This document shows, piece by piece, positions 41,015-46,165 of a DNA stretch of 64,000 nucleotides. The stretch is taken from assembly GCF_002873135.1 (NCBI RefSeq), contig NZ_MCVI01000072.1, positions 62,001 to 126,000 of the forward strand, read 5' to 3'. How positions within the stretch are numbered: the first letter of the stretch is position 1; each line of letters opens with the position of its first letter. This stretch comes from Shewanella sp. 10N.286.48.A6 (GTDB lineage Bacteria; Pseudomonadota; Gammaproteobacteria; Enterobacterales; Shewanellaceae). A program made the translations under genes and the position numbers. The notes beneath the pieces were generated by a model. That model was not told the origin of the DNA. It ran no database searches and saw nothing but the letters and a program-made list of their open reading frames with translations.

Positions 41015-41593
41015 ATGACTCGTGCTTATAACAGCAAATTGGCGTTAATACTCAAGGTGACTTTTATTTGCTTGCTGCCCAGTGTTGGTCATGGTGCTGA
41101 GGCCATTGTGGGCGGCGTTGTGGGTTATGCCGATTATAGCGCTTCTTCTGTGGGGCTTTCTGATACTCAAGAAAGTGGCATTAATTATCAATATAGAACA
41201 GCGATAACGTTAAACCCAAGTAACCGTTTATACGGTGCTTATTCCTATAATTCTGATGATATGACTCAGCATGAAGGACTATTAGTCTCCTATGACCGAC
41301 TGTTTTCGGTTGATGATGTACATGATATAAAATGGTTTATTGGTGCTTCTGCAGGGTTTAGCGGTAATGAAATTCAATTAACCGATTTAGATCGAAGTTA
41401 TCAAGACTCTGGCAGCAGCTATGTTTATGGCGGACAAGTGGGTTTTCTATTTGATTTGGGACATGATTTTACATCTGAGATAGGTTTTCGTTATTTAAGG
41501 CATAATGTCACTTCTTCGATGGAATATAACAGTGCTGCGTTATCAGTTAATGATGCTGAGCAAATTTACTTCGGCATTGATTTTACCTTTTAA
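41015..41593 (+). CDS. Small outer-membrane beta-barrel protein of unknown function
   Basis: 192 residues. The signal peptide ends about residue 27 (GHG-AEA). The rest alternates strands with aromatic ends and Asp/Ser-rich turns (for example GYADYSASSVGL, RTAITLNPSNRLYGAYSYNSDD, YFGIDFTF at the end). The last residue is Phe, as is usual for outer-membrane barrels, and about eight strands would fit. GGAGG lies four bases before the ATG at 41015. The family is not named. Convergent with a TM2-domain gene pair. Confidence 0.8.
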   Translation: MTRAYNSKLALILKVTFICLLPSVGHGAEAIVGGVVGYADYSASSVGLSDTQESGINYQYRTAITLNPSNRLYGAYSYNSDDMTQHEGLLVSYDRLFSVDDVHDIKWFIGASAGFSGNEIQLTDLDRSYQDSGSSYVYGGQVGFLFDLGHDFTSEIGFRYLRHNVTSSMEYNSAALSVNDAEQIYFGIDFTF

Positions 41594-41688: not shown

Positions 41689-41934
41689 TTAACTTGCTTT
41701 GATAAACTTGCCTTCAGAATCTTTAAAACTACCAACGGCTATGATAATAAAGTCGATTAGTGTCCAAATACCAAAACCACCTAAAGTTAATAGCATTAGG
41801 ATACCAGTACCAATTTTACCTGCATAAAAACGGTGCGCACCGAACATACCTAGGAAAAAACATAATAGTAGCGTTGGTACGAATCCTTTGTCGCTTACTT
41901 GGACATCTGCAGTTGCTGTTTGTACTTCTGACAT
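41689..41934 (-). CDS. TM2-domain membrane protein
   Basis: 81 residues from ATG 41934, chosen because GAGGGA lies at good spacing upstream; the frame is open to 41949. The TM2 domain covers most of the protein: first helix with [20 protein letters not shown], the polar [11 protein letters not shown] turn, a second helix and a C-terminal [17 protein letters not shown]. The family is widespread and its molecular role is not well known. Another TM2 protein lies immediately upstream on the same strand with a 15-bp gap, so this is a pair. Confidence 0.88.
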
Positions 41935-41949
41935 AAATAAATCCCTCAA

Positions 41950-42252
41950 TTATAATTTTTGTCCTGGATAGGTAATCAACTTACCTTTCCCGTCCCTATA
42001 GCTTCCAACTAGAAGCATAAAAGTGACCACTATAGTGTGAATAACATCGATAACGATGAGACCTAAACCAAGTAGCGCGAGGGTGACGTCTTCAAACTGC
42101 ATGAGTGTTAGCCCTACAATGGCTAAAGATAAATCAAATACACCATGGCTAATACGGCCGCAGTAAAAATGATGAATTCCTAGCACTCCGAAAATACCGG
42201 AGAGGATAACTGCTACAGCGTAGTTTTTTTCTGATTTGACAGAATCAGTCAC
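41950..42252 (-). CDS. TM2-like membrane protein
   Basis: 100 residues starting at GTG 42252, which has a perfect AGGAGG (42259-42264) six bases upstream; the ORF extends to 42294 but without a ribosome-binding site. Three hydrophobic stretches are seen; the first holds the TM2 turn GIHHFYCGRISHG, and the end reads LVGSYRDGKGKLI, which parallels [10 protein letters not shown] in the neighbour. It is probably a diverged paralogue, with about one extra helix. Co-transcribed with the TM2 gene at 41689. Confidence 0.85.
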   Translation of the reverse strand: MTDSVKSEKNYAVAVILSGIFGVLGIHHFYCGRISHGVFDLSLAIVGLTLMQFEDVTLALLGLGLIVIDVIHTIVVTFMLLVGSYRDGKGKLITYPGQKL

Positions 42253-42336
42253 TTTCAACCTCCTTGATGAAAATCTTAAAGTTTTATATAGCAAAGGCTT
42301 ACCTTTATCAATCTAAAGTTGTTAATAAATAAGTTA

Positions 42337-43896: not shown

Positions 43897-43917
43897 CCTT
43901 GGCTAATCATTATCACC

Positions 43918-43940
43918 AAGGCTCCCGAAGGAGCCTTTTT
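43918..43940 (+). terminator. Intrinsic terminator after the amidohydrolase gene
   Basis: 8-bp stem AAGGCTCC (43918-43925) with GGAGCCTT (43930-43937), CGAA tetraloop, T-run to 43940. It is close to the end of the converging transporter gene. Confidence 0.88.
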
Positions 43941-43954
43941 AATGGATGGTTAAT

Positions 43955-46165
43955 TTAGTCAACCCAATGCAGTACATCACGAATAATCGACCATCGCGGC
44001 ACTGGTGTGGTTGCGCCTTTTCCTAGCATCCAATAATCATAAAATTGTTGCTGGTGGCCATCGACTCGGCGCAGTTTTTGCCAGTTATTAATGTAGTTTA
44101 ATAGTGACTGATTAGGTTGGGCGACAGCATAAGCCACAGGATAGCGATTTTTACCTTCTAAAATGGCAATGCCGTAGCCTGGGAAGAATAATGTCCAAGC
44201 TGAACCTGCTTCAGCGCTGATCACCACCGCATCGTATTTGGGCGCTTTTTGCCTAAAGAAATCTTTATAACCGTCAATTTTAACAAAATTAATATGAGGC
44301 AGTTTTTTCTTGGCATCGGCAATTTTATCATCATGTTCAACATAGGCGATGGTGGTATTTTCCATTTCGAGAATGGACTCATCAGTTTTGAAGCTATTAA
44401 CCCGATGATCTTGAGTGGCAATGGCGATGTTAAGCTCTAGCACTGGTTCGCCATAACTAAGCCTGTCCATTTGTTTGATATCCATTGACAGCCCCGACAT
44501 GGCGACATCAAAAAAACCAGCCTGTAATGACGCTGCGAGCTTATCTTTTTTGAACGGGATAAACTCTACCTCGACTTTCAAGTCCTCCGCCAACTTAGTG
44601 GCCATTGCAATATCAAAGCCCACTAACTGGCCGGCATTATTGTAGTAACTAAAAGGCACATTACTGGGAATGTAACCGACTCTTAGTAAGCCACGTTGGC
44701 GAATGGAATGGACGCTGGCGATTGCTTGAGTGGGCGTTTTACCGATTTCAGGGTATTGGCGAGTCACTTTCGTGGGCACTTTGTCAGCCACTTTCATGTT
44801 GGCGATCACCTCACTGGTGATATCAGGGCTATGTATAAATAATCCCATACCTATGCGGCAAACAACAATGGTGACCGCGGTACTGGCTAAAAGCCCAACC
44901 GACATTTTAATTAATTGCGGCGGACGAATTTTCAGTGTCCCTTGGAATAAGCACACGGTTAATAGGGTGAGGGCGAATAGGTTCATTACTGCGGCAATAG
45001 AGTTGAACTTGCCTGTGATAAAGCCTGACATGACAAATAGTTGGAATAAGTCTGAAGGTAGTTGCACTAAGTCCAACATAAAAGGAATGGCGACATACAC
45101 ACTACCAAATAAAGATAATAAGCCACTAACAGACAATGATGGCATAGCGCTGATATCAACAGGGGTGCCATTAAACCAGCCAGCAAAGTAGACAAACAAG
45201 ATAACGGTTAATTTACCGATATTGGGGAAGGTAAATGCAATAGGCACCAAAATCTCAATCAGGGTGACGCCATCTTCAGTTAAGTTATTATGCTCACGCA
45301 TAATTTGCTTACACTCAGCAATAATTACCGGAATAACAATAAAGATATTACCTGTGGCAAAGGCGGTAACTAAACTGGCTTTACTTATGTTAACCGTCTG
45401 CCTATAAGTGATTGGCGTTAATGACGAAACTATCCAAGGTAGCACTGCAAATGTGAGCAATAAGCACAAAGCAAAGTAACTAATAAGGTAAACCTGCATA
45501 CTGGCAAACTCATCCACTCCCATAGTGCCTGCTGCCGATGCTGACATGGCAAAAATACCAATAGGCAACACTTTAACCAAGCCTTGGGTGATCCGAGAAA
45601 AGGCTTCTGTGATGGTATGCATGAAGGTTAACACCAGCTTTTTATTGTCGCCCTCCATACTAATTAACGCGAGACCCAAGGCAATACTGAATACCACCAT
45701 GGCAGGAACATAGCCTTCCGCCATCGACTCAAACGGGTTTGAAGGAATATAGAGCTTAAAATAATTAATCGGCTGGGCAGGTTCGATAATACTGGTGCTG
45801 AAAAACGATGCTGATTCAATAAACGGAAAAGACAATGGCATTAACGCAGTGAGAACTAAACCGACTAACCACAGCAATAACATAATGGCGCCAGCGCGGC
45901 TAAAAATTAATATGGCCGTGCTTTTTTGCAGTTTGCCTATACCGCCAATAAGCGATACCACTATGTAAGGCAATACGGTCATTTGCATTAATAAAATAAC
46001 GCCATTACCGATAGCGCTAAGCCAGCCTACGGACTCGCCAAAGAATATCCCCACAGCAAAGCCGACAAACATAGCTACTAGCATTTGGGTTGAACTGGTC
46101 ATCGCAAGTAATTTTTTAAACACAGTTATGTTCCATTTATTATCTGGGCTTGAGGGTAAACTCAC
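43955..46165 (-). CDS. Dicarboxylate/amino-acid:cation symporter fused to a periplasmic solute-binding domain
   Basis: 736 residues in one frame. The first about 430 are a DAACS/GltP-like secondary transporter with eight to nine hydrophobic segments (AMFVGFAVGIFFGE at the start; MTVLPYIVVSLIGGI; FVMSGFITGKFNS near the end). After a last helix (about 430-450) comes a family-3 solute-binding (SBP_bac_3) domain, about 485-715, opening RQRGLLRVGYIPSNVPFSYY and continuing GQLVGFDIAMATKLAEDL. The usual NMDGT motif of the transporter reads FPNIGKLT here and the serine-rich loop is ATGNIFIVI, so substrate and ion coupling probably differ from GltP. Starts at GTG 46165. Both parts are full length, so this is a true fusion. 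Confidence 0.9.
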   Translation of the reverse strand: MSLPSSPDNKWNITVFKKLLAMTSSTQMLVAMFVGFAVGIFFGESVGWLSAIGNGVILLMQMTVLPYIVVSLIGGIGKLQKSTAILIFSRAGAIMLLLWLVGLVLTALMPLSFPFIESASFFSTSIIEPAQPINYFKLYIPSNPFESMAEGYVPAMVVFSIALGLALISMEGDNKKLVLTFMHTITEAFSRITQGLVKVLPIGIFAMSASAAGTMGVDEFASMQVYLISYFALCLLLTFAVLPWIVSSLTPITYRQTVNISKASLVTAFATGNIFIVIPVIIAECKQIMREHNNLTEDGVTLIEILVPIAFTFPNIGKLTVILFVYFAGWFNGTPVDISAMPSLSVSGLLSLFGSVYVAIPFMLDLVQLPSDLFQLFVMSGFITGKFNSIAAVMNLFALTLLTVCLFQGTLKIRPPQLIKMSVGLLASTAVTIVVCRIGMGLFIHSPDITSEVIANMKVADKVPTKVTRQYPEIGKTPTQAIASVHSIRQRGLLRVGYIPSNVPFSYYNNAGQLVGFDIAMATKLAEDLKVEVEFIPFKKDKLAASLQAGFFDVAMSGLSMDIKQMDRLSYGEPVLELNIAIATQDHRVNSFKTDESILEMENTTIAYVEHDDKIADAKKKLPHINFVKIDGYKDFFRQKAPKYDAVVISAEAGSAWTLFFPGYGIAILEGKNRYPVAYAVAQPNQSLLNYINNWQKLRRVDGHQQQFYDYWMLGKGATTPVPRWSIIRDVLHWVD

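Follow-up and report, generated by a model that had tools for sequence, protein, structure and literature searches.

Carriers of the DAACS (SLC1) type, known from GltPh, GltTk, the EAATs, ASCT2, DctA and GltP, belong to the best-studied elevator families, and relatives such as DctA carry C4-dicarboxylates. The carrier folds of TRAP and TTT systems differ from that of DAACS, and ABC importers are ATP-driven and have a permease fold unrelated to it. In a 2025 study (PMC12344293), TRAP and TTT systems, with the solute-binding protein (SBP) as a separate component, are given as the only secondary carriers earlier known to use SBPs; the TAXI-GltS pairs and fusions described there, in which an SBP is tied to a secondary, probably elevator-type carrier of a glutamate-symporter family, are the nearest precedent. 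Here, we analyse a gene at 43955..46165 on the minus strand of a 64,000-nucleotide stretch of Shewanella sp. 10N.286.48.A6 (contig NZ_MCVI01000072.1, positions 62,001 to 126,000; hereafter the window), which encodes a DAACS-type carrier and a family-3 SBP in one chain. The best reading is that DAACS-SBP fusions form a further class beside TRAP, TTT and TAXI-GltS. Judged from sequences and a structure model, they are somewhat probably binding-protein-dependent secondary (elevator-type) transporters on the DAACS fold.

Over residues 1-396 the protein has the fold of DAACS/SLC1 carriers, and helical hairpins 1 and 2 (HP1, HP2) and transmembrane helices 7 and 8 (TM7, TM8) can be aligned; it differs from them by replaced sodium ligands, a shorter HP2 region, a TM7 lysine, a ninth helix and the C-terminal SBP. 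SBP-dependent secondary uptake would be the principle in common with TRAP and TTT. The tie between SBP and secondary carrier, which these systems share with TAXI-GltS, here takes the form of a single chain, and both domains were present in 120 of 120 homologues listed (of 1779 with E <= 0.001). By comparison, the study on TAXI-GltS (PMC12344293) gives 14 fusions among approximately 10,000 GltS entries, with a TAXI-type SBP located N-terminal to a GltS carrier, whereas here a family-3 SBP stands C-terminal to a DAACS fold. A covalent tie of SBP and permease is likewise found in ABC importers with a fused family-3 SBP (6h30, a glutamine permease with SBP).

Further SBP-coupled classes would, as stated in the same study (PMC12344293, 2025), test whether the elevator mechanism itself permits SBP coupling. 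No description of a DAACS-SBP fusion was found among the matches listed in searches of open-licence PMC full texts. The sequences and their domain names are already in databases; new are the recognition of the class, the rebuilt carrier site and the BshA link. Since DAACS is such a well-studied elevator family, a natural DAACS-SBP fusion makes the question of elevator mechanism and SBP coupling directly testable.

One frame with two domains

An open-reading-frame check of the window gave a single, uninterrupted frame of 736 codons (43955-46165, minus strand). Its start codon is uncertain, GTG 46165 leading to 736 aa and GTG 46123, used by the database copy P0001, to 722 aa. Residues are numbered after P0001 unless open reading frame (ORF) numbering (736 aa) is stated. 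Pfam SDF (PF00375) matches ORF residues 26-401 with 136.8 bits (cut-off 27.9; profile positions 3-382 of 387) and SBP_bac_3 (PF00497) ORF residues 494-713 with 68.6 bits (cut-off 26.4), which bears out the prediction that a DAACS carrier and a family-3 SBP share one continuous frame. The Pfam scan of the chain revealed no domain besides these two and no cytoplasmic output part. The features are as follows.

43955..46165 (-): fusion gene, encoding 736 aa (start GTG 46165) or 722 aa (start GTG 46123); stop codon TAA at 43957-43955
44936..46123 (-): DAACS/SDF carrier domain (1-396), GltPh/EAAT/ASCT2 fold
45332..45370 (-): HP1 tip VTAFATGNIFIVI (252-264), replacing the serine-rich loop; from alignment and conservation
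45212..45229 (-): TM7 motif FPNIGK (299-304), replacing NMDGT; from alignment
45080..45118 (-): shortened HP2 tip LSLFGSVYVAIPF (336-348); from alignment and the distance between TM7 Gly and LPxD
44966..45025 (-): TM8 site (367-386), with G371 in place of D394, A378 of N401 and L382 of D405; from alignment
44837..44923 (-): ninth transmembrane helix, TM9 (401-429), predicted to lead the chain into the periplasm; from model and hydropathy
44720..44836 (-): variable linker (430-468), conserved at 1.50 bits (overall mean 2.31)
44009..44719 (-): family-3 solute-binding domain (469-705), AncCDT-1-like, with Q551 and S636; from Pfam, fold search and alignment
43958..44008 (-): conserved C-terminal tail TPVPRWSIIRDVLHWVD (706-722); from conservation
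43897..43954 (no strand): 58-base gap before the next gene

The structure model of P0001 reached a predicted template-modelling score (pTM) of 0.67, with weak stretches at 118-135 and in the tail. Fold searches of the model assigned residues 1-396 as GltPh/EAAT-like and residues 469-705 as AncCDT-1-like; the top 50 Foldseek hits against the PDB were SBP-fold chains only, and the carrier match derives from a separate search with more than 30 solved DAACS-family entries among its matches. For comparison across the family we used 62 near-full-length relatives, leaving out proteins below 650 aa and those more than 80% alike. Residues 401-429 are helical in the model, with a best Kyte-Doolittle mean of 1.99 and values of at least 1.6 in 61 of the 62 relatives. 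The SBP is thus predicted to face the periplasm, in good agreement with the original prediction. Behind the SBP, the tail is strongly conserved (pattern PRWSxIRDVLxW) and carries Arg-Trp in 61 of 62 relatives, with one gap.

Carrier site and binding domain

The carrier sites of the 62 relatives were compared with those of six canonical paralogues from the window's genome, with GltPh numbering anchored by alignment. N310, D312, N401 and D405, which we take to be sodium/substrate ligand positions of GltPh, are kept in none of the relatives. Position 310 is proline and position 312 a hydrophobic residue or threonine in all 62 (D312 is also glycine in three of the six paralogues); position 405 is always leucine or isoleucine, and position 401 carries a small residue. 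Where the fusion has FPNIGK, the paralogues show NMDG, NMGG or NKGG. The TM7 glycine is followed by a lysine in 62 of 62 relatives; one gap decides whether it falls at 314 or 315. HP1 of the window protein reads TGNIF in place of the serine-rich loop, and across the relatives TGN stands instead of the serine run (G and N each in 61 of 62). Between the TM7 glycine and the proline of LPxD, 53 residues were counted in 60 relatives (two were not measurable) versus 60-61 in the paralogues. The HP2 region is thus seven residues shorter, and the alignment places six of the seven at the HP2 tip. The change of NMDGT and of the serine-rich loop had been predicted correctly, but its extent was understated: other residues stand at the sodium-ligand positions of TM7 and TM8, HP2 is shortened, and the SBP contacts are lost as well. 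Likewise, what had been called the most unusual single protein in the window is no one-off, its rebuilt site being common to all 62 aligned members.

At an overall mean of 2.31 bits, conservation amounts to 3.08 bits in the HP1 tip and 2.92 bits each in the TM7 motif and the HP2 tip, and is lowest in TM9 (1.26) and the linker (1.50). Because the three tips are well conserved, the site looks re-purposed, and a decayed carrier is disfavoured. Ligand replacement together with the shortened HP2 suggests that the carrier probably lacks the usual sodium coupling. We therefore describe the protein as a relative by DAACS fold and claim no status as a sodium symporter for it; the fusion is a natural experiment on an SLC1 fold whose sodium sites have been replaced.

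In the binding domain, Q551 and S636 occupy the places of HisJ Arg77 and Asp161, which we take to be the contacts of family-3 SBPs to the alpha-carboxylate and alpha-amino groups of amino acids. The aspartate position is non-Asp in 83 of 84 aligned rows. All 8 rows of clade B retain the arginine, as do 11 of 14 of the Desulfobacterota group and 9 of 10 distant members; none of the 15 rows of the window's clade has it, 12 of them carrying Q. With the usual Arg/Asp contacts replaced, binding of the ligand as a standard alpha-amino acid is unlikely; for the members that keep the arginine, a carboxylate lacking an alpha-amino group is a plausible ligand. The nearest solved SBP relatives include ancestral and modern cyclohexadienyl dehydratases (AncCDT-1, 25-26% identity), from which the fusion SBP differs in the Asp161-like contact and, in the window's clade, also in the Arg77-like one.

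Family extent and the bshA link

When 84,980 species genomes were scanned, 391 stretches proved to encode relatives, and 80 of these were retained. They stem from Shewanella, Oleispira, Neiella, Pseudoalteromonas, Thalassotalea, Ferrimonas, other Gammaproteobacteria and metagenomic Desulfobacterota; according to source names in the SDF-size search, partial two-domain proteins come additionally from Nitrospirota, Planctomycetota, Chromatiaceae and Entotheonella. The closest named relative is a protein of Shewanella sp. UCD-KL21 (96%). At an E-value limit of 1e-60, 6 of 274 genomes sampled from the class and 22 of 295 sampled from the order carry a fusion, as do 10 of the 21 same-genus genomes among the order-sample matches listed; since the limits applied in genome counts are strict (1e-60, 1e-70), distant members may be missed. 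By sequence, this is a widespread family across scores of bacterial species. The window's genome encodes seven SDF proteins, the fusion being the weakest family match, and a search for a second fusion in it found none. In Shewanella and Neiella, several genomes have a pair of divergent fusions (L048/L053, L049/L052, L051/L063, L025/L077, L028/L084, L030/L089, L041/L086), which may serve different solutes.

No convincing unfused relative was found among 33 inspected proteins (11 of SBP size and 22 of SDF size, each from 120 listed matches). By eye, most short relatives resemble fusion pieces from contig ends or frame shifts. Five may be real halves: P0218 and P0123 begin near TM9, and P0244, P0255 and P0312 stop near TM8/TM9. 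Five other SBP-size matches start in the linker and have no evident signal peptide.

Neighbouring genes were counted in 44 hand-picked loci; the count did not include the other 36 of the 80 (other Shewanella, Pseudoalteromonas, one Neiella and a number of second copies in Shewanella). A bshA-like gene adjoins the fusion on the same strand in 13 loci. In the four of these tested, the BshA equivalog TIGR03999 scored 366-430 bits (cut-off 273.7), and the cut-off was passed in all ten genomes having a match. From bshA to the downstream fusion start, distances range from an overlap to 81 bases (ten loci). The direct upstream position is seen, e.g., in L063:8758-12142, L082:8823-12139, L085:8813-12154, L092:8808-12169 and L048:8688-12145. 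In the class sample, bshA occurs in one of 274 genomes and adjoins a fusion there; in the order sample it occurs in nine of 295, all nine fusion-bearing, and in eight it adjoins the fusion, the matched stretches lying 3-148 bases apart. On the tree over 30 checked loci, the link is seen in separate branches, namely clade B, the Neiella group and Shewanella TC10 beside the window's clade, with at least three changes. Shewanella TC10, KT0246, olleyana and electrodiphila have bshA and a second fusion gene on the side that corresponds to 43897..43954. In close Shewanella relatives, two fusions of approximately 37% identity enclose bshA (L015:10001-15998, L017:9947-15967).

BshA normally joins N-acetylglucosamine (GlcNAc) to malate (PMC6282198). 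BshC is absent from all ten bshA-bearing genomes and a PIG-L deacetylase (BshB) from nine, one having it. Bacillithiol is thus disfavoured, and the BshA product in these relatives is probably another compound. As BshA uses malate and DctA-type relatives carry C4-dicarboxylates, the ligand in bshA-linked relatives may, by analogy, be a malate-like acid that would then be glycosylated by BshA. This proposal is not directly transferable to the window protein, whose SBP lacks the arginine and whose genome was searched for bshA and lacks it. For the orphan bshA genes of Gammaproteobacteria, the fusion provides a functional lead.

Possible roles and remaining neighbours

As a binding-protein-dependent transporter, the fusion would work as follows. 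The SBP would capture solute in the periplasm, dock on the carrier, presumably a trimer as in known DAACS, and hand the solute over. The short HP2 gate might depend on the SBP for loading or closing the site, and the invariant TM7 lysine could substitute for a bound cation, so that solute would be taken up without the usual sodium coupling. Transport activity, SBP export and docking are proposed here from sequence and model.

Several observations weigh against this reading. The TM8 site, at 2.43 bits, is barely above the mean, and the stretch 125-154 (3.05 bits) and TM2 (2.86 bits) are conserved like the carrier site. With its arginine replaced, the SBP of the window's clade might be a weak binder or none. 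Beside the fusion, bshA is found in just 13 of 44 loci; the window's genome lacks it, and the ninth bshA genome of the order sample (G291) has it approximately 7.7 kb from the nearest fusion. Signalling genes adjoin a few relatives on the opposite strand, encoding PAS-histidine kinases (L079:12222-13535, L088:3088-4440) and a GGDEF protein (L052:12210-14177); in L062, a PAS-histidine-kinase/response-regulator protein is the third neighbour, again on the opposite strand. Finally, the conserved site fits a sensor equally well.

Such a sensor, or transceptor, would bind ligand with the SBP and relay a conformational signal across the membrane through the rebuilt, non-transporting carrier. Because of the signalling neighbours and the altered site (replaced sodium-site side chains, shortened HP2, an SBP without the usual amino-acid contacts), it is the main rival, and yet we consider it unlikely: the chain has no Pfam domain beyond SDF and SBP and no cytoplasmic output part, the HP1, TM7 and HP2 tips are kept, and among those neighbours in the 44 loci that were annotated, signalling genes form no cluster common to the family, the widest (c2) covering six loci. 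An ordinary sodium- or proton-coupled dicarboxylate/amino-acid symporter whose SBP merely raises affinity would agree with the DAACS fold and the nearly whole-length SDF match above cut-off, but is rather improbable given the weakest SDF match of seven in the genome, the shortened HP2 region and the four ligand positions replaced in 62 of 62. The relationship to cyclohexadienyl dehydratases would suit a carrier serving as mere membrane anchor or export device for an anchored binding protein or dehydratase-like enzyme. In that case, the carrier core should not be so much better conserved than the helix adjoining the SBP, which makes this explanation very improbable. A frameshift, sequencing error or assembly join of two genes, the danger seen by the original prediction, has next to no probability and can be regarded as refuted, with no supporting evidence found and the identical join in all 120 listed homologues.

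Next to the window gene, Pfam identifies proteins of the dihydroorotate-dehydrogenase family, SIMPL and amidohydrolase types; examined for a clue to the substrate, these neighbours gave none. The spacing between dehydrogenase and fusion is 337 bases in TC10 and 550 in olleyana. At 41015-41593 lies a gene for a 192-aa protein without Pfam match, by eye a small exported barrel. Two adjacent TM2-domain proteins (69.9 and 38.2 bits) are encoded at 41689-42294 on the minus strand.
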